Below, in pieces: positions 4,373-29,752 of a stretch of DNA of 64,000 nt. The notes below the pieces were generated by a model. That model was not told where the DNA came from. It saw only the letters and a program-made list of their open reading frames with translations, and searched no databases. Within the stretch, counting starts at the first letter, position 1; each line of letters begins with the position of its first letter. The stretch spans positions 171,181 through 235,180 of the forward strand of contig JAKVBU010000007.1 of assembly GCA_022446885.1 (NCBI GenBank), in the 5' to 3' direction. The position numbers and the translations under genes are program-made. This DNA comes from Phycisphaerales bacterium. Its GTDB lineage: Bacteria; Planctomycetota; Phycisphaerae; Phycisphaerales; SM1A02.

Positions 4373-7300
4373 ATGGAAACCAGCGCCCCGGTCTTCGCCC
4401 ACCTGCACCTGCACACCGAGTATTCACTGCTCGACGGCGGTAACACCGTCAAAAAACTGGTTCAGCGGGTCAGAGAATTGGGCATGGATGCCGTGGCCGT
4501 CACTGATCACGGCAATCTCCATGCTGCGGTCGAGTTTCATACAGCAGCCAAGGCTGAGGGCATCAAGCCGATATTGGGCATCGAGGCCTATGTCGCCCCG
4601 GGCGAACGCACGCTTCGGGCAAAGACCGACACCGGCCCCGCTGGTGGCTTTCATCTGGTGTTGCTTGCTGAGAACGAGACGGGGTGGCAGAACCTGCTTC
4701 GGCTCTCCAGCGATGCGTTTCTAAAGGGCTTCTATCACAAGCCCCGCATGGACAAGTCCACGCTGGCCCAATGGTCCGAAGGCATCATCGCCATCAACGG
4801 GCACCTGGGATCTTCGCTCGCCTGGCATCTGGTGAAGTTTGAAGAGACTGGCGATGAAGCCCACTTTGAGGCTGCATGCGATGAAGCTCGGTGGCATGCC
4901 GAGACCTTTGGCCCTAACGCTGATGGTGAGCCGTGCTTTTTCGTCGAGCTACAGATGCACGACGTCGAGATGCAACAGGCGATCAATCCGCATCTGGTGC
5001 GGCTGGCTCGTGAGCTGAATCTGCCCCTCGTAGGTGACAACGACGCCCACTATCTGGGAGCGGAAGATCACGATGCCCATGACACGCTTTGTTGCATTTC
5101 GATGGGCCGAACGAAAGACGACGACTCCCGGCTGAAGTACTCGCCGGAGTTGTGGGTGAAGTCGCCCGAGCAGATGGAGCGCCTGTTTCAGGATTGGCCC
5201 GAGGCGTATGAGAACGCGGGCCACATTGCTCGGCGCTGCAACGTCGATCTGGACTTTGACGCCAATCATGCGCCCGTCGTTGTGGCCAAGGGGCCAGATG
5301 AAGCGCCTGGTTGGGATGGCAAGACTGACCAGACAGACTGGTTCAACGAGTGGTGTACTCGCTTCGAGTTGCTTCCGTTCGATGCCGAGCGCGACACCCA
5401 TCTCGATGTCGAGACGCTGGAGCGCGATTGCGACCGTGTCTTGCGCCTGTTGTGTGAAGGTGGGTTGATCTGGCGATACGGTGATTCGGTAGACGCCCCG
5501 GTGCGAGCCCGCCTCGAGCGAGAACTGAAGATTCTCGCCGACAAGCACATCAGTGCCTACTTCCTGATCGTCTGGGATTTCGTCAACTGGGCTCGGCAGC
5601 GGGGCATTCCCGCAAATGCTCGCGGCAGTGGCGTGGGCACAATGGTGGGCTATGTGCTGGGCCTTTCCAACGCCTGCCCGGAGCAGTACGGCCTGCTCTT
5701 TGAACGATTCACCGATCCAGATCGGTCTGAGTACCCCGACATCGATATCGACATCTGCCAGAACGGCCGCGGCGATGTCATCAGGTATGTCCGCGAGAAG
5801 TACGGCCATGTCGCCCAGATCATCACGTTCGGGCGCCTCAAGGCCCGAGCGGCAATCAAGGATGTCTCACGTGTGTTCGGCCTGCTTCCCCAGGAAGGCC
5901 AGCGCATTGCGAATCTGGTTCCGCCGGAACTGAACATCACCATCGACGACGCGCTGGAGTCCGGCCAAGACTTCAAGGCCGAATACGAGGGCAACCCTCA
6001 GGCTCGCCGCGTGATCGACGAGGCCCGCAAACTCGAACACCATGCTCGCCACGCAGGCGTGCATGCGGCTGGTGTCGTGGTGGCCACCCAGCCGCTCGAC
6101 TCGATCGTGCCCCTGTGCCGAGTGTCTCAGAGCGATGATGCCGTGACCCAATGGGACGGGCCGACCTGTGAGCGCATGGGTCTGCTCAAGATGGACTTCC
6201 TCGGGCTACGCACCTTGTCCACGATGGAACTGGCCAAGCGGCTCATTCGTGAGACGCTGAGCGAAGAGGCCATTCATGAAGCCGTTGGGCGTAGCGCCTC
6301 CGATGAGGGGCCACATCCGCTGGATCTGGAACGCATCCCCTTCGATGATCAGAGAGTGCTGGGGCTGTTCCGACGCGGAGAGACCTCCGGCATCTTCCAG
6401 TTTGAGTCTGGCGGCATGCGGCAATTGCTTCGTGAGATGCGGCCTGACCGGCTGGAAGACCTCATCGCTGCCAATGCCCTCTATCGGCCCGGGCCGATGG
6501 ACCTCATCCCCGAGTATTGCGCCCGCAAGCACGGCGAGACAGAAGTGCCCGCAGTGCACGAGGTGGTTGACGCGTTCACTGAAGAGACCTACGGAATCAT
6601 GGTCTATCAGGAGCAGGTCATGCAGATCGTGCATGGTCTGGGTGATGTGCCGTTGCGGGAGGCATACTCGCTCATCAAGGCAATCTCCAAGAAGAAGGAG
6701 AAGGTCATTGACGCAGCGAGGCCCAAGTTCATCGAGGGTGCGGCGGCCAAGGGCATGCCCGAGCGTGAGGCGCAAAAGCTGTTCGACCTGATCCTGCGAT
6801 TCGCCGGATACGGCTTCAACAAGTCGCACAGCACCGGATACGCCATCATTGCCTACCAGACAGCCTGGCTGAAGACGTTCTACCCGGTGCAGTACATGGC
6901 AGCGGTACTCACGTTCGAGTCAGCTGCTCGCAAGACTGAGGAGTGGGCGCCCTATCTGGACGAGTGCCGCCACGTCCGATTCTCCGATGACACAGAGCAG
7001 GAACCTCACCGAGGTATCGAAATCCTGCCACCAGACATCAACCAGAGCCAGGCATCGTTCACGGTCATTCATCAGGATGGAGCCGACACGCCAACCTCAC
7101 TAGGTGGCTCCATCCGATTCGGTCTGGGTGCGATCAAAGGTGTGGGCACCGCTGCTGTGGAGGCCATTGCCGCCGAGCGTGAGCGTGGGGGCGAGTACCG
7201 ATCGGTCTGGGATCTGTGCGAACGTGTTTCGGGGCGATCTGCAAACAAGGGAACGCTCGAAGCGCTCGTCTCAGCCGGGGCGCTGGACTCGCTCCACGGC

Positions 7301-8191
7301 ACAGAACTCCGCGCTGGCTTGCACGCCACCATCGAGAAGGCGATGAAGGCTGGTGCCGAGCGGGCCCGCGATATCGCCTCTGGTCAAGGGGCGCTCTTTG
7401 GCGGCCCGGTCGAAGATGAAACAACTGCCCCCATGGAAGACCCGCCGCTGGAGCGAGCTGCGGCATGGACCAAGCGCCAGTTGCTTGCAGCTGAACGCGA
7501 GCACCTGGGCTTCCACATCTCGGGCCACCCACTCGACGAACACGAACGAGTGGTTCAGGTGTACGGCACCTCGACGATCTCCGCGCTCGGCGACAAGCGA
7601 GATGGGGCGAGAGTCGTGGTAGGGGGCATCGTGTCCGGGTGTCGCATCGTCACGCCATCCAAGGGTCGCAATGCCGGCCAACGCATGGCGATCATCACGC
7701 TTCAGGATCGGGCTGGTTCAATCGAGGCTGTGCTCTTCCCCGATGCCTTCCGCAACTGTGGTGAGCTGGCGGTGATCGATCAGGTGGTTCTGGCAGTGGC
7801 CGAAACCGGCGATCGCAATGGTGATCTGCAACTGGTCGTTGAGCGCCTCATTTCGCCAGCCGACGCACCAAGATTCCTGACGGAACGCATCGAGGTGCAC
7901 CTCGGCCGCATCGATGGTGGCTCTGAAGGCGAACTGCGGACACGTCTGGACATGGCCGCGGGTTTGTTGCGGCAATCTGGCGGCGCCCGGGTTGCAGATG
8001 GTGCCAGGCCTGCAGAGGTCTACCTGCACGGTGACAAGGGAGATTCATCCCTGATGTGGCGCAGCAATCTGCGGATCGTGCCGCACGATGAACTCATCGG
8101 CCAATTGCAGGGGCTGCTCGGTGGCGACAGGGTCCGTCTGGTGGGACGAGTGCCCGATCCCCCGAAAGACCGACGGCGTCCGCGGTACTGA
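4373..8191 (+). CDS. dnaE: DNA polymerase III alpha subunit
   Basis: The replicative DNA polymerase catalytic subunit, 1272 residues, about 110 longer than the E. coli enzyme. The N-terminal PHP domain begins HLHLHTEYSLLDG (from H10) and continues with VTDHGNLH. The palm carries YPDIDIDIC (454-462), where D456, D458 and D460 include the two metal-binding aspartates. These are followed by the REKYG, HARHAGVHAAG and NALYRPGPM segments typical of DnaE1. Next come the GFNKSHSTGYA helix-hairpin region and, near the C-terminus, an OB-fold segment (VVVGGIVSGCRIVTPSKG onwards). I see no internal exonuclease insertion of the PolC type. It appears monocistronic, facing the receiver-like gene. Confidence 0.97.
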   Translation: METSAPVFAHLHLHTEYSLLDGGNTVKKLVQRVRELGMDAVAVTDHGNLHAAVEFHTAAKAEGIKPILGIEAYVAPGERTLRAKTDTGPAGGFHLVLLAENETGWQNLLRLSSDAFLKGFYHKPRMDKSTLAQWSEGIIAINGHLGSSLAWHLVKFEETGDEAHFEAACDEARWHAETFGPNADGEPCFFVELQMHDVEMQQAINPHLVRLARELNLPLVGDNDAHYLGAEDHDAHDTLCCISMGRTKDDDSRLKYSPELWVKSPEQMERLFQDWPEAYENAGHIARRCNVDLDFDANHAPVVVAKGPDEAPGWDGKTDQTDWFNEWCTRFELLPFDAERDTHLDVETLERDCDRVLRLLCEGGLIWRYGDSVDAPVRARLERELKILADKHISAYFLIVWDFVNWARQRGIPANARGSGVGTMVGYVLGLSNACPEQYGLLFERFTDPDRSEYPDIDIDICQNGRGDVIRYVREKYGHVAQIITFGRLKARAAIKDVSRVFGLLPQEGQRIANLVPPELNITIDDALESGQDFKAEYEGNPQARRVIDEARKLEHHARHAGVHAAGVVVATQPLDSIVPLCRVSQSDDAVTQWDGPTCERMGLLKMDFLGLRTLSTMELAKRLIRETLSEEAIHEAVGRSASDEGPHPLDLERIPFDDQRVLGLFRRGETSGIFQFESGGMRQLLREMRPDRLEDLIAANALYRPGPMDLIPEYCARKHGETEVPAVHEVVDAFTEETYGIMVYQEQVMQIVHGLGDVPLREAYSLIKAISKKKEKVIDAARPKFIEGAAAKGMPEREAQKLFDLILRFAGYGFNKSHSTGYAIIAYQTAWLKTFYPVQYMAAVLTFESAARKTEEWAPYLDECRHVRFSDDTEQEPHRGIEILPPDINQSQASFTVIHQDGADTPTSLGGSIRFGLGAIKGVGTAAVEAIAAERERGGEYRSVWDLCERVSGRSANKGTLEALVSAGALDSLHGTELRAGLHATIEKAMKAGAERARDIASGQGALFGGPVEDETTAPMEDPPLERAAAWTKRQLLAAEREHLGFHISGHPLDEHERVVQVYGTSTISALGDKRDGARVVVGGIVSGCRIVTPSKGRNAGQRMAIITLQDRAGSIEAVLFPDAFRNCGELAVIDQVVLAVAETGDRNGDLQLVVERLISPADAPRFLTERIEVHLGRIDGGSEGELRTRLDMAAGLLRQSGGARVADGARPAEVYLHGDKGDSSLMWRSNLRIVPHDELIGQLQGLLGGDRVRLVGRVPDPPKDRRRPRY

Positions 8192-20913: not shown

Positions 20914-21948
20914 ATGAGCCAGCCACAGACCACACCCGCATGGACCGACGACAACCTCATGTCGTTGCAGAGCCACATTCTCTCTGAGGAGCGGCATCAC
21001 CCCTCGGCCACAGGCGACTTCTCCTGGATCCTCTCAGGCATCTCGCTGGCCACCAAGACGATTGCGTCCAAAGTGCGGCGTGCTCGAATCGAAGATGTCA
21101 TCGGCGATGCCGCCGGGCGGCCTTTCGGCGAGCGTGACGGCATCAACGTGCAAGGTGAGCAACAACTCAAACTGGATGTCATTGCCAACGAGGTCATCAA
21201 GGCTTGTCTTGGATCACGGGCCAACATCGCCGCACTTGTGTCGGAAGAAGATCAAGAACCCACCATTCTCCGGAACCGTGAGAGTGGTGGGCGGTATGCG
21301 GTCTTCTTTGACCCACTCGATGGCTCAAGCAACATTGATGTCAGCGTCGGCGTGGGCACGATCTTCGGCATCGTCCGGCTGCCCGATGAGCGGCGTGTGT
21401 CGGGCACCGAGGCAATTCTGCACGAGAAGGCTACGGTCGCAGCCGCGGGGTATGTGCTCTACGGGTCGTCCACGGTCATGGTGCTTACCACCGGCAATGG
21501 TGTAGACATGTTCGTACTCGATCAGTCGATCGGCGCGTATGTGTTGGTGAAGTCCAAGATCAAACTGCCCGATAGCAGACGGATCTACTCCATCAACGAA
21601 GCCTATGCGTCTCGCTTCCCGGCCGGCGTCAGCCGCTGGCTGCAATGGGCCCATGAGAACGACTACACGAGCCGGTACATCGGATCCATGGTCGCAGATG
21701 TCCATCGAACCCTCCTCAAGGGCGGTGTATTCCTGTACCCACAAACCAATGACCGCCCGGAAGGAAAGCTCCGGCTGCTGTATGAGGCCATGCCCATGGC
21801 CATGATCATTGAGCAGGCAGGTGGCGCCGCTGTAACAGGCAGTGGTCGAATTCTCGACGTCGCACCTGAAGCCCTGCACCAACGGGTGCCGGTGATCCTC
21901 GGATCAAAGGAAGAGGTCGCGCACATTCAGCGCTGCCTCGACAACTGA
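20914..21948 (+). CDS. fbp: Class I fructose-1,6-bisphosphatase
   Basis: The gluconeogenic enzyme that removes the C1 phosphate of fructose-1,6-bisphosphate, 344 residues. The metal and substrate site FFDPLDGSSNID spans 131-142, preceded by the acidic EEDQEP (111-116). YIGSMVADVHRTLLKGG and GKLRLLYEAMPMA complete the class I signature. ATG 20914 gives the usual N-terminal helix. The PrpD-family gene follows after 32 nt on the same strand, so they may be co-transcribed. Confidence 0.95.
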   Translation: MSQPQTTPAWTDDNLMSLQSHILSEERHHPSATGDFSWILSGISLATKTIASKVRRARIEDVIGDAAGRPFGERDGINVQGEQQLKLDVIANEVIKACLGSRANIAALVSEEDQEPTILRNRESGGRYAVFFDPLDGSSNIDVSVGVGTIFGIVRLPDERRVSGTEAILHEKATVAAAGYVLYGSSTVMVLTTGNGVDMFVLDQSIGAYVLVKSKIKLPDSRRIYSINEAYASRFPAGVSRWLQWAHENDYTSRYIGSMVADVHRTLLKGGVFLYPQTNDRPEGKLRLLYEAMPMAMIIEQAGGAAVTGSGRILDVAPEALHQRVPVILGSKEEVAHIQRCLDN

Positions 21949-21980: not shown

Positions 21981-23528
21981 ATGAGCGCCATCGCCACCGA
22001 AACAACCATCACCCTTCCCCGAGACTCCAACCAGGCATTGGGCATCGGTCAATTCGCCTGTGACTGGATGTCGGGCAAACTCGGCACACCAGATGAGTCC
22101 GTCAAGCATCGCACGGTGCAGTTCTTCGTGGATAGTGTGCTGTGTGGCCTGTCGGCACTGGCGATGCAGACCAACGCGCCAACTGTGCTTCGTGATGAGG
22201 CGCATGCCTATCCTCGAACTGGCGGCGCAACCTGTTTTGGATCTTCAACGACGGTCGCCCCGGAGAAAGCAATTGCCGCAAATGCCTCCGCTGTTCGTGA
22301 GTGGGACAGCAACGGCACCAACTTCGGTTACAACCCAACGCTGGGGCACACGGCAGGGGAGTTTGGCCACAACGACTTCTACGCCGTTCCATTGGCCGCC
22401 GCTCAAGTAGGCGGACTCGATGGCGCAGCGGCCCTCTCCGGCATGATGTTGCTTGACGAAATCAGAGGCCGCCTGGCAGAGGTGTTCAGTCTGAAGTCGT
22501 ACAAGATCGATCACGTCGTGCACGGTGCGATTGCTTCCGCCGCTACTTGGGGCGCCATGTCTGGCGCCACTCCGGAGCAGATCGAAAGTGCCATCGGCAT
22601 GGTGGTCGCCCACTACATCCCCTGGCGGGCCATCCGAGCAGGCAAGCAGCTCAGCGACTCCAAGGGGGCCAGTGCCGCCATCAGTACTGAGGTTGCCGTG
22701 CTGGCAATGCAGCGAAGTATGCGGGGGTTCATTGGCCCCAAGGACATCTTCCGCAACCCTGAGGCGATCTGGCGGCAGTTCGAGCCCACCAACGGCGACA
22801 GCCCATTCGACCTGGTGCTGAGCCACGCCGGCGACGACTTCGCTGTGATGGGCATGCACTTCAAACTCGGCCTGTACGAGCACCAAAGCGCCGGGGCGCT
22901 GCAGGGCTTGATTGACCTGCTTCGTGCCAACCCAGACGTACTTGACAAGGCAGAGTTGATCGACCGCATTGCCATTCGCGCATATGAACCGGCCTTTGGC
23001 ATCATCGGCGACCCGGCAAAGCGAGATCCGCACACCCGTCAGAGCGCTGATCACTCAATGGTGTACATCGTCTCCACGATGTTGCGCAAAGCCATTGAGC
23101 TTGGAGCCCCCGAAGGGGAGAACGATGACTGGTGGAAGCAGCTCATGCTCATGCCCGCCGACTATGGTCGAGACGCCATCGACAACGCCCACACCAGATC
23201 GCTCATGGAGAAGATCGAGTTCGAGCACGGTGGCGCCGAGTATGACGCGCGGTACCCCGACGGCATTCCCACGAGCATGGTCATCACACTCTCAGATGGC
23301 CGGTCATTCGACAGCGGTCTCGTGATGTACCCCAGTGGACATGCCAGAAACATCACTGCCGATCTTGAAGACATCTTGTCGCACAAGGCCTCTTTGATGG
23401 GCGCCATTGCCGTCGATGGCGATGCTGCCGCGGTCATAGAGCGATTCCGCTCGATCGAGTCGGCTGATGTCGCGGCGATCTCCAACCTCATGCAGTTCGA
23501 CATTGCTCAACGCGATCCGGTGGATTGA
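21981..23528 (+). CDS. MmgE/PrpD family protein (2-methylcitrate dehydratase-like)
   Basis: A 515-residue member of the MmgE/PrpD family, whose characterised members dehydrate 2-methylcitrate or cis-aconitate-type substrates without an iron-sulfur cluster. Visible family segments are REWDSNGTNFGYN, HTAGEFGHNDFYAVPLAAA, KSYKIDHVVHGAIASAA and RQSADHSMVYIV. No prpB or prpC lies nearby, so the 2-methylcitrate cycle is not established. In this window the only other candidate for propionate metabolism is the B12/MeaB protein at 35-36 kb. The gene probably shares a transcript with fbp. Confidence 0.87.
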   Translation: MSAIATETTITLPRDSNQALGIGQFACDWMSGKLGTPDESVKHRTVQFFVDSVLCGLSALAMQTNAPTVLRDEAHAYPRTGGATCFGSSTTVAPEKAIAANASAVREWDSNGTNFGYNPTLGHTAGEFGHNDFYAVPLAAAQVGGLDGAAALSGMMLLDEIRGRLAEVFSLKSYKIDHVVHGAIASAATWGAMSGATPEQIESAIGMVVAHYIPWRAIRAGKQLSDSKGASAAISTEVAVLAMQRSMRGFIGPKDIFRNPEAIWRQFEPTNGDSPFDLVLSHAGDDFAVMGMHFKLGLYEHQSAGALQGLIDLLRANPDVLDKAELIDRIAIRAYEPAFGIIGDPAKRDPHTRQSADHSMVYIVSTMLRKAIELGAPEGENDDWWKQLMLMPADYGRDAIDNAHTRSLMEKIEFEHGGAEYDARYPDGIPTSMVITLSDGRSFDSGLVMYPSGHARNITADLEDILSHKASLMGAIAVDGDAAAVIERFRSIESADVAAISNLMQFDIAQRDPVD

Positions 23529-23682: not shown

Positions 23683-25338
23683 TCAGTCTGAGGCCTTGGG
23701 CACGGCGAATCGCGGTCGGTGCCGCTTGATCCAGCCCTTGAGCATTCCCCAGAGGGACATGCCACGCAAGCCGCGCCTGCGATTGGCGTAGCCGATTCGC
23801 CAGCCCTCGCGCAGTTGCCTTGCAAGAATGCTCCAACTGCGCCAAGCGCTGTAACTTGGGTCGTAGATGTTTGTGCTCTCGCTAGCGGCACCGTTGAGTT
23901 CGATGATGACGAATCCCTCCCCGCGACGGAGCCGCTCCGGGCACTCATACCGCACATCCAAACGACCGTAGGTGTATCCCTCGATCTCACCCAACACTTC
24001 TTCGAGCCGGTCTTGGAGCGCTTGCGACCACAGGTGAGCGCCATCAAGGAACATCGCGCCTTGGCAGTGATTGCCCACTTGCCCCAATTGCACAGTGGCT
24101 CCGGCTTCGGGAACCTCGTCGAGTCGCCCCTGTAGACGTCTGAAGAACACCCGCCACTGCATCGACAGGCGGCGGTCTCTCCAGACGAGTTCCTCAAGAG
24201 AGGATTCGCCATCGCCTGTCACTGTGGGCATCACCTTGTCGGTGATCGAGTAGATCCGGCCCCTTGGTTGATCTGGATGTCGCATCCAGAAAATGCCTGC
24301 CTCGTAGGGCCCGGGGTGCCAAGGCTGCGCGACCAGATCGAGGGTTGCTGCAGCGAGCACTTCATGGGCCCGCTCTCGGGTGTGGGCAACGCGCACGGAT
24401 GACCCTCGATCGCCGCGATCGGGTTTGAGTACAAGGGGCAAGCCAAACTGTGGGTCACTCAACAAGTCGTCCAGCACCTGTGGATCACAACCTGCAGGCA
24501 ACAGCACGCTGGGTGACCCCCATGGGTCGCTCACCTGAGTCTGAATGTCGTACTTGGATGTGTCGAGAAAGCCCCCGTGGCACATGGCTGGTGTGGCGAA
24601 GGTGATGGTGGACGGGCCCCGGTAACGCAACCAAAGCCAGAACATCCAAGGCCACAGCGGCAGGTAGACCATGAACGTCGGCCAGAACTCGAAGGTCACC
24701 AATCTTCGCAGCTTGACCCGCAACCGGCGCCGGCCCTCACTCGTCAATGCAAGTGCGGCAGTTCGCAAGGTGAGCACGAACACCACCATTGCAAGTACGA
24801 ACGCCAGCCAAGTACTGCCTACCCATCGCACAAGCGGATCCCAGATGCCTTCGCCAAGAATGAGCACCGACGCGATGATCACGGGTGCCCAGATACACAC
24901 GGCCAGCAGCGTCCACAGCGCGAACCGACCAGGCCTTCGGGCTACGATTCCAGCGCCGGTGTACACCGGGACACGCATGCCCGGCACAAATCGGGACATG
25001 AGCACCAGCCCCCAGCCGCGGCGGTCGAACCAATCAGAGAGCTGATCCACTCGCTGTGCCGGAAGCTTGTCTGCAACCCAGTGCCATTTGAGTACTCGCC
25101 TACCGAACACACGACCGAGCATGTACAGAGCGAAGTCGCCGCTGAACAAGGCGATGCTCAAACCCACTACGCCCGTGATCAGACCCAATTCTCCTGCCTG
25201 AATCAGCAGGCCCACACCGATGCTTGTGGGATCTTCCAGAATCCAGGCCGCAACGGTGATCAGCAACACTGCGAGCACCGGGTGCATGCCCGAGTGAATC
25301 TCGATGCCACCAGGCAGAACTGTGGCGAGGTACTCCAT
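23683..25338 (-). CDS. DedA/VTT membrane protein fused to an ATP-grasp domain
   Basis: A 551-residue two-part protein. Residues 1-210 form a DedA-type (VTT/SNARE-associated) membrane domain with GDFALYMLGRVFG (67-79) and the conserved SRFVPGMRVPVYTGAG (115-130). DedA proteins are implicated in polyprenyl-phosphate or phospholipid flipping. Two further hydrophobic segments (about 170-195 and 215-237) follow. Residues about 275-500 look like an ATP-grasp ligase: LVLKPDRGDRGSSV (302-315, nucleotide-binding Lys and glycine loop), GRLDVR (458-463) and the metal-binding IIELNG (478-483). The substrate is unknown. It is the third gene of an operon with a DinB-like and an NRDE protein (2-nt gap). Confidence 0.8.
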   Translation of the reverse strand: MEYLATVLPGGIEIHSGMHPVLAVLLITVAAWILEDPTSIGVGLLIQAGELGLITGVVGLSIALFSGDFALYMLGRVFGRRVLKWHWVADKLPAQRVDQLSDWFDRRGWGLVLMSRFVPGMRVPVYTGAGIVARRPGRFALWTLLAVCIWAPVIIASVLILGEGIWDPLVRWVGSTWLAFVLAMVVFVLTLRTAALALTSEGRRRLRVKLRRLVTFEFWPTFMVYLPLWPWMFWLWLRYRGPSTITFATPAMCHGGFLDTSKYDIQTQVSDPWGSPSVLLPAGCDPQVLDDLLSDPQFGLPLVLKPDRGDRGSSVRVAHTRERAHEVLAAATLDLVAQPWHPGPYEAGIFWMRHPDQPRGRIYSITDKVMPTVTGDGESSLEELVWRDRRLSMQWRVFFRRLQGRLDEVPEAGATVQLGQVGNHCQGAMFLDGAHLWSQALQDRLEEVLGEIEGYTYGRLDVRYECPERLRRGEGFVIIELNGAASESTNIYDPSYSAWRSWSILARQLREGWRIGYANRRRGLRGMSLWGMLKGWIKRHRPRFAVPKASD

Positions 25339-25340
25339 CG

Positions 25341-26069
25341 TCAGAGAGTGCGCCTGATCGGGTCACTTGCGAATGACGGGCGATCGTTCCAGAGCGTCAT
25401 GGTGCCGCTGTCGGGCTCAACAAGGGTCAGGCTCGTCGTGGCTGCCGCCGACCGACTCATTGAAGGCGACAGATGTGATCGATCAGGCCAGAAGGTCCGG
25501 TGGAATGTGCTTTGGGCGGCCGGTCGGTCTTCCAATGCAGCGGCCAGGACGAGTTCCTCAAACAGGGCCGAGCGGGGCGCATCTACGAGGTGGTCGCCGA
25601 GACCTGATGAACACCAGACTCGGGCCACCTTCGCCTTGAGCGGCTCAAGAGAGAGCGACAGTCCAAGCGATGCATGCCAAGCAGCCACGAGCAAGGTGGT
25701 GGAGTCATGCAGAACAAGACGGAACGGGCCCATGCCTGAGAAGTCCAGCGCCTCAAGCTTGGTCTTGACATCAGCGACCGATGAAGCGGAGGCCAGATCG
25801 AGCAACACAGAGCCGCGGCTGCGTGTCGGTGTGGCGGACGTGAGATCCGGCAGAGTCCGATTGAGCAAGGTGCCAGCGACTCCGTGCTCATTCATCATCA
25901 CCCACGTGCCGCCTGCAACCTCGTCGCGCGGTGCGATCAGCCTGACACCTTCTCGTAGTTGCACGCTTGGCCCCGACCAGGGCCGATCTTGCGCCTCATC
26001 ACGACTGCAGCACATGCGCCGCACGGGGTGCTCCACCCCGGGATGGGTGATGAGCGAAACAGTGCACAT
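25341..26069 (-). CDS. NRDE family protein (TANGO2-like)
   Basis: A 242-residue protein of the NRDE/TANGO2 family. It begins MCTVSLI, with Cys at position 2 as in Ntn-hydrolase-like members, and has SRDEAQDRPW in place of the name-giving NRDE. GGTWVMMNEHGVAGTLLNR is the other conserved block. In bacteria the family has no firm biochemical role, though eukaryotic members are tied to lipid/CoA or haem handling. Its start ATG directly abuts the stop of the DinB-like gene (0-nt spacing). Confidence 0.82.
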   Translation of the reverse strand: MCTVSLITHPGVEHPVRRMCCSRDEAQDRPWSGPSVQLREGVRLIAPRDEVAGGTWVMMNEHGVAGTLLNRTLPDLTSATPTRSRGSVLLDLASASSVADVKTKLEALDFSGMGPFRLVLHDSTTLLVAAWHASLGLSLSLEPLKAKVARVWCSSGLGDHLVDAPRSALFEELVLAAALEDRPAAQSTFHRTFWPDRSHLSPSMSRSAAATTSLTLVEPDSGTMTLWNDRPSFASDPIRRTL

Positions 26070-26591
26070 TCAAGAAGCCGACAGCGCCCGAACCGTGGCA
26101 GGCGCCAGGCCGAATCCCTCGGGAACCGGTTGCTGAGCTCGCTGCAAAGCCAGTGCGATCAACGCTTCGTGGTGAATCGTGTGGCTGAGTACGAATGCCA
26201 GTTCACGGGAGAGCGTTGAACCGCACTGCACATCGGTGCCAGCAGCATCGACCGCCACTTCCACCTCAAGGGCCCGATCTTCATCTGGCAGCTGGTGCAG
26301 GCGGTTTGTGATCTGTTCCAGACGGCATCGGGCCGCCTCGGCACATGCCTCGTCATCGGTGCCGCGCTTGCGTCGATCGTAGGCCACCAACTCTTCACGC
26401 TCAATGGCAATGAGCACCGCCTCGACGTGATCCAAACAGTGCCGCACATGTGGCCCGATGGCGCCGCCACCATGCTCGGAAGCCGCCTGAGCCAGCACTT
26501 GGTCATCCACATCGTGTAGCGCTTGGCTGAGCCGATTCAGCACTGCCAGCAGCGCCTGGCGCAGTGAGTCAATAGTCGTAGTGGGTGTCAT
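26070..26591 (-). CDS. DinB-like four-helix bundle protein
   Basis: A 173-residue all-helical protein with the metal-binding histidine layout of the DinB/YfiT superfamily. One His lies in GPHVRHCLDH on the second helix and a pair in VLSHTIHHEALIA near the C-terminus. Members include thiol-dependent S-transferases and many of unknown function. The frame is open upstream, but ATG 26591 (MTPTTTIDSLRQALL) starts the first helix. First gene of the DinB-NRDE-DedA operon. Confidence 0.78.
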   Translation of the reverse strand: MTPTTTIDSLRQALLAVLNRLSQALHDVDDQVLAQAASEHGGGAIGPHVRHCLDHVEAVLIAIEREELVAYDRRKRGTDDEACAEAARCRLEQITNRLHQLPDEDRALEVEVAVDAAGTDVQCGSTLSRELAFVLSHTIHHEALIALALQRAQQPVPEGFGLAPATVRALSAS

Positions 26592-26683
26592 AGCGGAGGT
26601 GGTCCAAGTTCTGGGTGCGGCCCCGGGAGATCTGGTACACCATAACGACCACCCAGTATCTCCTGCATTCAACTGCCTTCCCC

Positions 26684-27080: not shown

Positions 27081-27371
27081 CTACGTACGGTCATTGGCCT
27101 TTGCAGCAGATGGCTGACCGTCTTCGCTTGCGCGCCGCCGAATAGCCCTTGTATTGAGCAGTGTGAACCCGATCAGGGCCAAGCCGAACAGTGCGACGCC
27201 CAACCAGGTAGCCCACGCCCCATCTCCTATCACCATGAGTACACAACCGCCCAGGCCACAGCCCGCCCAAAGCAGTGCACAGGGCCCATGGACTGCCGAG
27301 CCTGGAACCTCTCCACTCCACTCCTGCTCCGGCTTGAGCAGATTCAGTTTCCGTAGATCACTCAAACTCAC
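27081..27371 (-). CDS. Small two-helix membrane protein
   Basis: A 96-residue protein with a polar N-terminus (LSDLRKLNLLKPEQEW), two hydrophobic segments (about 28-48 and 52-72, rich in Gly, Leu and Trp) and a basic C-terminal tail. Its ATG overlaps the stop codon of the permease gene (4 nt), so it is translated from the same message and may act with the permease. No family recognised. Confidence 0.65.
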   Translation of the reverse strand: MSLSDLRKLNLLKPEQEWSGEVPGSAVHGPCALLWAGCGLGGCVLMVIGDGAWATWLGVALFGLALIGFTLLNTRAIRRRASEDGQPSAAKANDRT

Positions 27372-29752
27372 TCAACCGGCTCCTTGGAAACGAGGAAGTC
27401 GATGGTCCGTTGCGCCACAAATCGAGCCGTGCCCGGCCGCATGCGCACGAGCAACAGCGGCCCTGGCCATCGCTCTGCCACTCGGTAGTGCAACTGAGTG
27501 AACGATCGCTTGGAGATGCCGTCGCCCGATGCGCCCAGCACGAGCAGATCGGCACCTGATGCCGCCTCGAGAATGCCCGAGACAATGCCGTCGGCCGGAA
27601 CCGCCTCAGCCTGCACATCTCCTGGAAGCCCATCGCCGTTGGATAGATCTCTTCGAAGCGCCTCTCGAATCTCGTCGAGATCATCTTGTGGCGAAGCGAT
27701 GCGGACCGCCTCCACCGAACCTCCGCCCATGAGCAGTTCCCGTGCAACCGAAACGGCATATCGGCCCTGACGTGGCTGAGCGATTGGAACCACGATACGG
27801 CGGCAGTTCTTGGGCACCGATCCCTTCAGAACGAGTGTGTGACAGTCGGCCTGACGAATCACACCGTCGATGTCGGTGCCGAAGGTGAAGTGGCGCATGC
27901 CCAGAGGCCGCCGCTTCGGGCCGGTCCATCCCATCACCAGCATGTCTACGTTGCGTTCGTTGACCGTGTCTACCACGCACTGCGCCGGAGAGCGGCCCAC
28001 ACGAACGAGCCCGGCGATGTCCGCACCGGAGGCCGCTTCAATCGCCTTCTCCACTACGGCTCGGCCTTCAGCCACAAACTGGCCGGTTGATTCCACGGGC
28101 AGTTGCTCGGGCACCCGCACCACGTTGACCACTGTGATGTGTCGGTCGGCATCCGAGAGTCGAACCGCCAGATCAACCAGCGCTCCAGCTGTCGTTGGAT
28201 TCGCAACTGGAACCAGCATCTCCTTGGCTCCATGCGGACGAATTGGTGCCTGCTCGAAGATCACCGGCGTTGCGCGGTGGGCCGACTCCTGCCGTCGAGA
28301 CCACGAGTAGTACACGATCAACCCTGCCACAACCCATCCCACTGTGAGCCAGAGTGTCAGTGGCTGCGAGGCCAGCAACCAAGCCGCGATGGCTACTTGG
28401 CCAACAGCCGCGACCACTGGAATGACCGGGCCTCCGGGCACGATGTAGCCGTATCGGAGTTTGTCTCCGTACTTGCGCCGGATGACGATCGACGCGATGT
28501 TGACTTGGGCAAACACCAGCAAGAACATCGCGCAAGTGGCCGCGGCGACCTTCTCCGCCGGCAGCAAAAGAGCTACGGCGACGATGATGACACCACTAGC
28601 CGCAAGAGCAGCGGACGGTGTACGAGTTCGTGGGTGAATCCAAGCCAGTCGTGCTGGCAGCAGTCGATCTCGACCCATCGCGAACGACACGCGGGTTGAG
28701 CTGAAGGTGGTGGCGTTGAGGGCACTCATCGTGGATAGCACCGCCCCGATCACCAGCAAGATTGCCCCTGTGCCCCAGGGCAGGAACTCGTTTGCCGCGA
28801 CTGCTACCCCAGTTTCGCCCAGCCCCGCCAGATAACGCCAAGTCTCACCAACGCCCCAGCCTGTCTCCGCAACGACATCAGGTGGGATGTTGAGTGCCCC
28901 CAGACACACGATGGCCACCAGCACGTAGATGGGTATCACGATCAGGAGCGACAGAAAGACCGCCTTGGGAATGGTGCGGCGTGGCTCGATCACTTCTTCG
29001 CCGGCCTGCACGATGATCTCGTAGCCCTCGAAGGCGATGAATGTCAGGCCCATGGCGATGAGTACGCCACCGAGCCCCTCTGGCAGGAAGGGGGTGAACT
29101 TCTCGCCGACGGCGACATCGTGTTCGCCTGTCATGGCGATGGCACCAGCCAGAATGAAAATCGCGATGACCACGATCTTGGCAACTGTGATGATGTTGCC
29201 CGCCTTGCCGGTCTCGCTGGAGCCTCGGTGGTTGATGTACAAGAAGCCCAAGCAGACCAGAAGTGTCAGCCCTTTGGCCCAAGGCCACGCTTCCATGCCA
29301 AAGAGCGTGCCCATGCCGTGTTCATGGCCGGCGCCAGTGGGAGGGTCGCCCCAACCGAAAACGGTTTGCATACCCCAAACCAGATAAGCCCCGAAGATGA
29401 CCGCGTAGAGCGACCCGGCTACCGCATGCGCCAACCAGTCCATCCATCCGGCGAGAAAGGCCGCCGGACCTGGCAGCCCGAGCCGCGCCCACAGGTATCC
29501 ACCGCCGGCTGCCGGAACAGCGCTTCCCACCTCGGCATAGACCATTGCCGTACAGAGCGTGAGCACACCATTGAGACAGAAGGCCAGAATCAGACCGGGG
29601 CCAGCCTTGCCCGCGGCGATCCCGGTGAGCGCGAAGATCCCCGCGCCGATCATGGCGCCGACGCCAACCATCGTGACGTCAAAGAGCCGCAGGGAGCGAC
29701 TCAGTTCGGTAACCGGGGCGCCCGCTTGAGCGGGTGCTGGGGCTTCGCTCAT
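27368..29752 (-). CDS. APC-superfamily amino acid permease with two C-terminal Usp domains
   Basis: A 794-residue protein. The first about 475 residues form a 12-helix APC transporter: TMVGVGAMIGAGIFALTG is the canonical unwound TM1 substrate site, and GFEGYEIIVQAGEEV-type sequence marks TM6. Two universal-stress-protein domains follow in the cytoplasm: residues about 495-640 (MLVPVANP and LVMGWTG) and about 650-775 (RRIVVPIAQP and LVLGASGDG). Permeases with Usp tails are known, and the tails are thought to bind nucleotide and tune activity. Minus-strand TACACT (29762-29767) sits 9 nt before the ATG. Confidence 0.9.
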   Translation of the reverse strand: MSEAPAPAQAGAPVTELSRSLRLFDVTMVGVGAMIGAGIFALTGIAAGKAGPGLILAFCLNGVLTLCTAMVYAEVGSAVPAAGGGYLWARLGLPGPAAFLAGWMDWLAHAVAGSLYAVIFGAYLVWGMQTVFGWGDPPTGAGHEHGMGTLFGMEAWPWAKGLTLLVCLGFLYINHRGSSETGKAGNIITVAKIVVIAIFILAGAIAMTGEHDVAVGEKFTPFLPEGLGGVLIAMGLTFIAFEGYEIIVQAGEEVIEPRRTIPKAVFLSLLIVIPIYVLVAIVCLGALNIPPDVVAETGWGVGETWRYLAGLGETGVAVAANEFLPWGTGAILLVIGAVLSTMSALNATTFSSTRVSFAMGRDRLLPARLAWIHPRTRTPSAALAASGVIIVAVALLLPAEKVAAATCAMFLLVFAQVNIASIVIRRKYGDKLRYGYIVPGGPVIPVVAAVGQVAIAAWLLASQPLTLWLTVGWVVAGLIVYYSWSRRQESAHRATPVIFEQAPIRPHGAKEMLVPVANPTTAGALVDLAVRLSDADRHITVVNVVRVPEQLPVESTGQFVAEGRAVVEKAIEAASGADIAGLVRVGRSPAQCVVDTVNERNVDMLVMGWTGPKRRPLGMRHFTFGTDIDGVIRQADCHTLVLKGSVPKNCRRIVVPIAQPRQGRYAVSVARELLMGGGSVEAVRIASPQDDLDEIREALRRDLSNGDGLPGDVQAEAVPADGIVSGILEAASGADLLVLGASGDGISKRSFTQLHYRVAERWPGPLLLVRMRPGTARFVAQRTIDFLVSKEPVE

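Follow-up and report, generated by a model that had tools for sequence, protein, structure and literature searches.

MprF and LplT-Aas each couple a membrane transporter, by fusion or as a pair, to a lipid-modifying enzyme that works on one leaflet. For DedA proteins, an inverted-repeat topology has been proposed, and in Escherichia coli YqjA the charged residues E39, D51, R130 and R136 are essential (PMC7818093; this and the other PubMed Central sources are cited from excerpts). The structure of human TANGO2 resembles cysteine N-terminal nucleophile (Ntn) hydrolases, including acid ceramidase and NAAA, and has been proposed to be one of them, with Cys2, Asn25, Asp27 and Asn157 as putative active-site residues and the substrate left open in that source (PMC13044924). 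Moreover, human TANGO2 binds acyl-CoA, and mutation of its NRDE motif abolishes the binding (PMC11867700). Here we describe a gene of a Phycisphaerales bacterium (assembly GCA_022446885.1) that joins a DedA/VTT membrane domain to an ATP-grasp ligase domain and stands last in a tight run behind a DinB-like gene and a TANGO2/NRDE-family gene (Table 1). The window that we analysed is the whole stretch of 64,000 nucleotides at positions 171,181 to 235,180 of contig JAKVBU010000007.1. As a reading that is possible, though still short of probable, we propose that the fused protein combines a membrane-bound carboxylate-amine ligase with a lipid transporter of the DedA type and forms the core of a conserved system that processes envelope lipids. 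The part families are known and their combination is apparently undescribed: among the papers listed from the open-licence PubMed Central literature, judged partly by title, we found no description of the fusion, or of the fusion with its TANGO2 gene set, and no joint mention of TANGO2 with DedA or of DedA with ornithine lipid; ornithine lipid and ATP-grasp meet in a paper that has the latter term just in its references.

The initial annotation read the gene as one uninterrupted frame coding for a DedA membrane part and an ATP-grasp ligase, and this was right: no stop interrupts the frame, Pfam identifies the DedA domain, and the profile and the structural model identify the ATP-grasp domain. 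We reject a chance frame because 75 homologues from other genomes align across both domains (identity 30-44%) and the AlphaFold model of the 551-residue protein is confident (mean pLDDT 92.7, pTM 0.84); the overlapping plus-strand frame of 519 residues (24577-26136) is taken as a high-GC shadow of the gene. A contig scan with the single protein returned no relatives, and a search with an alignment returned 208 confirmed ones. The family search proposed at the outset found the same DedA and ATP-grasp fusion in several phyla, the best 80 of the 208 relatives lying in Planctomycetota, Verrucomicrobiota, Leptospiraceae, Acidobacteriota and a few other groups. These relatives were kept as the best-scoring and share ancestry. 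For counting, 99 stretches (98 loci and the window) gave 90 usable frames, and 80 loci remained after removal of duplicates; all counts out of 80 include the window. The fusion alignment holds 76 sequences, also with the window, and covers all of these loci except L051, L052, L053 and L124.

The DedA part matches the Pfam domain VTT_dom (PF09335) at residues 40-155 (E 1.1e-15, 58.6 bits against a cut-off of 33.9). Three of its charged residues, E35, R116 and R122, do not vary across the 76 sequences and align by eye with E39, R130 and R136 of YqjA. The motifs quoted in the initial annotation were all located (SRFVPGMR at residues 115-122, G128/G130, LVLKPDRGDRGSS at 302-314, GRLDVR at 458-463 and ELN at 480-482), but only half of the G128/G130 signature stands: G130 is invariant, while position 128 is Gly in just 7 of the 76 sequences and Ala in 60, so G128 is no signature residue. 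With the DedA transporters (UptA, YqjA/YghB and the eukaryotic VTT scramblases TMEM41B/VMP1), the protein shares the VTT domain and helix breaks at the expected re-entrant loops; unlike them, it continues into a ligase within one chain and is often preceded by a hydrolase. Its first re-entrant loop seems shorter than what we take to be that of YqjA. Between the two domain cores, the aromatic, hydrophobic helix probably lies at the membrane surface.

Pfam found no match in the C-terminal half of the window protein, and the match of this single sequence to the Protein Data Bank (PDB) was weak (E 0.07). The profile of the 76 sequences, in turn, matches cyanophycin synthetase (E 9.1e-7) along a stretch that begins at the lysine loop and ends at the ExN motif. 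The ATP-grasp fold, which had been set as a test beforehand, is predicted by the AlphaFold model and by structure comparison: residues 222-515 of the model superpose on the cyanophycin synthetase CphA1 over 271 residues (Z 16.9, root-mean-square deviation 4.1), and Foldseek with the fusion model gave a best E of 2.2e-8. The next structural neighbours, at Z of about 12-14.5, are a bifunctional glutathione synthetase (3ln6, 14.5), LysX/ArgX, RimK and D-alanine--D-alanine ligase (Ddl; about 12-13); the structure-alignment rows for the two-domain model cover residues 218-523, so the DedA part is barely compared. Also as foreseen, the catalytic residues K305, D461, E480 and N482 are kept in every homologue aligned. 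The relatives were searched for with the patterns GNHxQG and HPGPxEAG, so the conservation of these two motifs is partly built in; the catalytic residues lie outside both. The likeness to CphA1, RimK, LysX/ArgX and Ddl consists in the ATP-grasp fold, the lysine loop, the D...ExN site and a GDGxS-like loop, and from these relatives the domain would be expected to have carboxylate-amine ligase chemistry. In contrast to CphA1, the fusion lacks the Mur-ligase-like second half and has its ATP-grasp domain behind a membrane domain, and in contrast to the known ATP-grasp ligases in general it has family motifs of its own, ANPGIPxGGxVGESK, HPGPxEAG and GNHxQG. In the first of these, the window protein has T, D and T at residues 249, 259 and 260, where the family has N in 70, G in 71 and E in 75 of the 76 sequences; the window copy may therefore be a divergent version of the family.

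Membership in two described families was considered and rejected. The window protein had no match to the cyanophycin synthetase model TIGR02068 at a threshold of E 0.1, and a stand-alone ATP-grasp protein of Salinivibrio reached 28.6 of 850 bits, below the cut-off. Similarly, neither the window protein nor the Salinivibrio enzyme, which is annotated as D-alanine--D-alanine ligase, has a Pfam or NCBIfam Ddl match. In a different reading, which we regard as unlikely, the ligase would act on a precursor that is linked to polyprenyl phosphate or is of the peptidoglycan type: the DedA part would flip undecaprenyl phosphate (C55-P) or an adduct of it, and a Ddl- or CphA-like ATP-grasp domain would attach an amino acid to a peptide bound to the carrier. 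It would fit with DedA proteins being C55-P flippases (PMC12893004), with Ddl standing among the structural neighbours and with the NCBIfam model nearest to our DedA part being the UptA equivalog NF052604 (E 1.3e-11). The UptA match, however, attains 45 bits where the cut-off is 250, and the recurrent neighbour clusters that were scanned with Pfam (not all of them were) hold no cell-wall gene, but TANGO2, DinB and acyl-lipid genes.

Table 1. Features of the fusion gene and its operon in the window
Feature	Position	Strand	Detail or basis
DedA(VTT)-ATP-grasp fusion gene	23683..25338	(-)	551 aa, ATG start
ATP-grasp ligase domain, residues ~218-523	23770..24687	(-)	profile and structure matches
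ExN metal-binding motif (E480, N482)	23893..23901	(-)	76/76 each
GRLDVR motif (D461, expected metal ligand)	23950..23967	(-)	R459, D461, R463 each 76/76
ATP-binding lysine loop LVLKPDRGDRGSS (K305)	24397..24435	(-)	K305 76/76
Aromatic hydrophobic helix, residues 221-238, between DedA and ATP-grasp cores	24625..24678	(-)	sequence, model helix
DedA/VTT membrane domain, residues ~20-200	24739..25281	(-)	Pfam match, model helices, column counts
TANGO2/NRDE-family gene	25341..26069	(-)	242 aa, Met-Cys start; Pfam, neighbour counts, profile
DinB-like gene	26070..26672	(-)	TTG start as called, true start may be internal; Pfam, blastp, His columns

The gene order in the window is DinB-like, TANGO2, fusion. 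The DinB-like stop abuts the TANGO2 start and the TANGO2 stop lies 2 bases from the fusion start, from which we infer that the three genes are co-transcribed. This arrangement recurs. In a six-frame profile search, 60 of the 80 loci have a TANGO2 gene at most 2 kb away on the strand of the fusion, upstream of it in 43 and downstream in 17; a DinB-like gene lies upstream in 59, and both are present in 56. This TANGO2 count replaces the 49/80 of a greedy open reading frame (ORF) caller that missed genes beneath longer opposite-strand frames. Of the nine stretches that had no usable frame and were not counted, seven have TANGO2 and DinB beside the fusion and two start at a contig end. The position of TANGO2 follows a deep split in a quick tree, all 17 downstream cases falling into one group of 19 rows (SH-aLRT 99). 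In a Terriglobia genome, a gene for a SpoIIE-type phosphatase (L118:7602-8369, plus strand) stands between the fusion and TANGO2.

The linkage also appears in two genome samples. Among 61 related genomes, 21 have a match that reaches the ATP-grasp part (2 of 37 within the same family, one of them split across two contigs), and 12 of the 13 genomes with a PF05742 match have the fusion (Fisher 1.8e-6, kinship ignored), G025 being the sole TANGO2-bearing genome without it. In 11 of these 12, TANGO2 lies beside the fusion, with G015 having it beside the DedA end of the split gene, and in one it lies about 6 kb away, as judged from coordinates. Among 294 genomes of the phylum, 32 have a match that reaches the ATP-grasp part, two of which are not clean fusions (a stand-alone ATP-grasp in G335 and a frame with two stops in G311), and the fusion is split over contigs in G231 of this sample, as in G015 of the smaller one. 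TANGO2 is present in 19 of these 32 genomes and in 58 of the 262 others (Fisher 2.5e-5, kinship again ignored); 14 of the 19 pairs are at most 10 kb apart and five lie on different contigs. Because the Fisher tests ignore kinship, adjacency is the stronger evidence of linkage. PF05742 misses some members: the copy in G058 (L049) was seen only by our own profile, and that of G054 was found in the 61-genome scan and not in the phylum scan.

The TANGO2 gene of the window matches PF05742 with 40.1 bits, above the cut-off of 22.6 (E 6.2e-10), and the family profile matches human TANGO2 (PDB 8sv7, E 9.6e-6). Counting the window, the profile gave 60 operon copies at E 1e-25 or better, and in 58 of them a Cys follows the start codon; the two exceptions are L100, which is truncated by a contig end, and L122, in which no such start was found. 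In an alignment of 43 operon copies, composed of the window, 41 of 57 listed neighbours and one Salinivibrio copy, Cys2 and Asp27 are each present in 43/43 and RDE is invariant; the 57 neighbours had been picked for a readable Met/Val-Cys start, and 58/60 is the unbiased count for the Cys. The operon copies share with human TANGO2 the Met-Cys start, (N/S)RDE, GTW, and the N and SRG motifs, and differ from it as a divergent subfamily. Only in L092 (Gemmata sp. IIL30, 5236-7569, plus strand, GTG-Cys start) do TANGO2, DedA and ATP-grasp form a single frame, which is either a real fusion or a frameshift; this single case does not fit the topology that we predict, and a frameshift may explain it, so we set it aside and do not use it as a Rosetta-stone proof. 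L083, which looked fused by its length, was rejected, its TANGO2 being in another frame. The DinB-like protein of the window matches Pfam DinB_2 slightly below the cut-off (E 7.1e-5, 23.7 bits against 24.8) and a gene of the Salinivibrio operon by blastp (2e-13), and six His columns are kept in 32 or 33 of 33 DinB-like neighbour copies.

In 32 of the 80 loci, a membrane helix followed by an alpha/beta hydrolase domain (Pfam match of 7.8e-32 in L009) opens the fusion frame. Its Ser-Asp-His triad (S152, D256, H283) is intact in all 29 of these copies that were aligned, and with the three-domain model the Foldseek matches listed are mainly alpha/beta hydrolases. The mean net charge is +3.6 ahead of the hydrolase's membrane helix and -0.6 behind it; those loops of DedA that should face inward carry positive charge (+6.6 and +3.3). 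Because of this charge pattern and of the inverted-repeat topology proposed for DedA, the hydrolase is predicted to lie outside and the ATP-grasp domain inside. The window protein has no hydrolase domain, and its genome holds no close copy of one, the best other hit being weak (5.8e-7). With the operon genes and this third domain, a system of several parts that processes lipids becomes a likelier function than that of a ligase alone.

Unfused versions hold the same parts. Eight of 28 plasmid records with ATP-grasp were examined. In all four Vibrionaceae loci among them (two Salinivibrio, one Vibrio and one Photobacterium, out of eight such records), VTT, ATP-grasp, DinB and TANGO2 are consecutive separate genes on one strand, annotated in Salinivibrio kushneri as VTT domain-containing protein, D-alanine--D-alanine ligase, DinB family protein and NRDE family protein. 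One Paracoccus has ATP-grasp, hydrolase and VTT as three adjoining genes, with VTT on the opposite strand; Azospirillum has the fusion with no TANGO2 within 6 kb; and the examined loci of Komagataeibacter and Variovorax have, over that range, the ATP-grasp part only.

How could these parts work together? In the tentative model that we favour, the DedA part would move an amphipathic molecule, likeliest an acid-headed lipid or lyso-lipid, across the inner membrane. At the cytoplasmic leaflet, the ATP-grasp domain would then activate a carboxylate as acyl phosphate and join it to an amine, giving an amide. The co-encoded cytosolic TANGO2-type protein would act in opposition, its N-terminal Cys serving an N-acyl amidase activity, and the DinB-like protein would be a metal-dependent helper. 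Where present, the fused serine hydrolase would trim an ester of the same molecule outside, before or after flipping. Domain make-up, catalytic residues and gene linkage are what our analysis shows, whereas the substrate, the direction of flipping and the sides of the membrane are what the model infers. A system that flips and modifies a lipid would be the most economical way to join the parts, and the earlier suggestion, in which the membrane part would offer a lipid to the ligase for amide formation driven by ATP, is plausible. Such a system would resemble MprF and LplT-Aas in coupling a transporter to a lipid-modifying enzyme, and would differ from them in its transporter and enzyme families and in having TANGO2, DinB-like and outer-hydrolase parts as well.

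N-acyl amino-acid lipids of the ornithine or glycine type are the most likely substrate class, because OlsF-like genes occur near 17 of the 80 loci, all of them convergent and 11 directly adjoining the fusion. The OlsF-like neighbour that was tested has orn_lipid_OlsF as its best model (E 4.9e-112), with 375 bits below the equivalog cut-off of 620. A strong OlsF-like hit (E <1e-50) is present in 14 of 21 fusion genomes and in 10 of 40 genomes without the fusion (Fisher 0.002). The OlsF and GlsBA synthases would be linked to our system as genomic neighbours with the same expected lipid class, and differ from it as acyltransferases with neither DedA nor ATP-grasp.

Several observations weigh against the lipid model. 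The fusion and TANGO2 are absent from both other genomes of the genus, and the DedA part has no clear counterpart of YqjA D51, D36 and D68 being its invariant acidic residues in the 76 sequences. The OlsF-like genes are on the opposite strand and near only 17/80 loci, 7 of the 21 fusion genomes have no strong hit, and the OlsF-like gene of the window's own genome sits on another contig. For human TANGO2, the excerpted source reports binding and excludes acyltransferase activity (PMC11867700). Among the 43 aligned operon copies, 37 have N and 6, one of them the window copy, have S in the Asn25 column, and the column placed at human Asn157 is Ser in all 43; its position comes from a MAFFT alignment with seven further TANGO2 proteins of bacteria (N in 6, D in 1) and not from the human sequence. 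The operon copies thus lack part of the putative set Cys2, Asn25, Asp27 and Asn157; they are, as far as these columns tell, TANGO2 relatives with an altered active site, and because of the Ser at the Asn157 column and the Ser of the window at Asn25, their amidase activity is an uncertain hypothesis.

Gene distribution raises the same kind of difficulty. Twenty of the 80 fusion loci have no TANGO2 within 2 kb on the same strand (flanks being short in some of them, L101, L107, L119 and L124), and 58 of the 77 TANGO2-bearing genomes of the phylum sample have no fusion, including those with its five top-scoring TANGO2 genes, so that the TANGO2 family is wider than the fusion operon. One could therefore argue that the fusion acts alone and that TANGO2 and DinB are mere co-members of a stress-response cluster with no common substrate. 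We consider this the least likely of the readings given here: the TANGO2 and fusion frames are at most 40 bases apart in 37 of 49 pairs, the gene order is swapped between two clades, and the unfused Vibrionaceae version keeps all four parts together.

Furthermore, several loci in Planctomycetota, Verrucomicrobiota and Acidobacteriota sit amid redox and stress genes, which the lipid model leaves unexplained. A detoxification or thiol-conjugate system is a further reading, which seems to us distinctly unlikely: ATP-grasp would make a small peptide- or thiol-like conjugate, the DinB-like protein would transfer it, TANGO2 and the hydrolase would cleave adducts and DedA would export or import. DinB-fold enzymes include thiol S-transferases, the glutathione synthetase 3ln6 is close in structure, and glyoxalase, DoxX, redoxin/YHS and extracytoplasmic function (ECF) sigma genes occur in some neighbourhoods. 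Such neighbours are in the minority, however, with redoxin/YHS near 13 and DoxX near 7 of the 80 loci, and, to our knowledge, the DedA proteins with known substrates carry lipids. In addition, it is acyl chains that human TANGO2 binds (PMC11867700). The counts for OlsF, GH3, redoxin and DoxX rest on the greedy ORF caller and are probably low.

Other neighbours are listed here as observations. A neighbourhood with Rieske-ferric reductase, YHS/redoxin, DoxX, DUF1223, GMC oxidoreductase, aquaporin-type, glyoxalase and ECF sigma genes is partly shared by L048, L069, L074, L112, L113, L118, L128 and L132, and its redox and ECF sigma genes suggest stress. GH3-type genes lie near 10 of the 80 loci (L040, L049, L079, L080, L087, L094, L096, L099, L103 and L105), with an extra alpha/beta hydrolase gene ahead of the GH3 gene in seven of these. 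In the window, one frame of 794 residues (27368-29752, minus strand) fuses AA_permease_2 (4.9e-48) to Usp domains (two stretches), and a gene for an MmgE/PrpD-family protein (21981-23528) stands beside one for a class 1 fructose-bisphosphatase (20914-21948), both on the plus strand, opposite the operon.

DedA/VTT proteins and TANGO2 are both conserved into humans, where TANGO2 is a disease protein. A conserved bacterial gene set in which a TANGO2 relative stands together with a lipid-type transporter and an ATP-driven ligase offers a genetic and biochemical route to the substrate of TANGO2, and the marine bacteria with four separate genes (Salinivibrio, Vibrio and Photobacterium) would be suited to it; since the set holds a TANGO2 relative, TANGO2 chemistry could be tested in bacteria. 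For an ATP-grasp family that carries, in its stand-alone form, the annotation D-alanine--D-alanine ligase, our results also suggest a class of reaction. It is tempting to go further and imagine a machine, of a kind new to bacteria, for trans-membrane editing of lipid amides, with an outside serine hydrolase, a DedA flippase and an inside ligase in one chain and a TANGO2 Ntn amidase opposing them. We hold this full picture to be doubtful; if it were true, TANGO2 would ancestrally have hydrolysed the N-acylated head of a lipid, and this would be a pointer to the substrate of the human protein.

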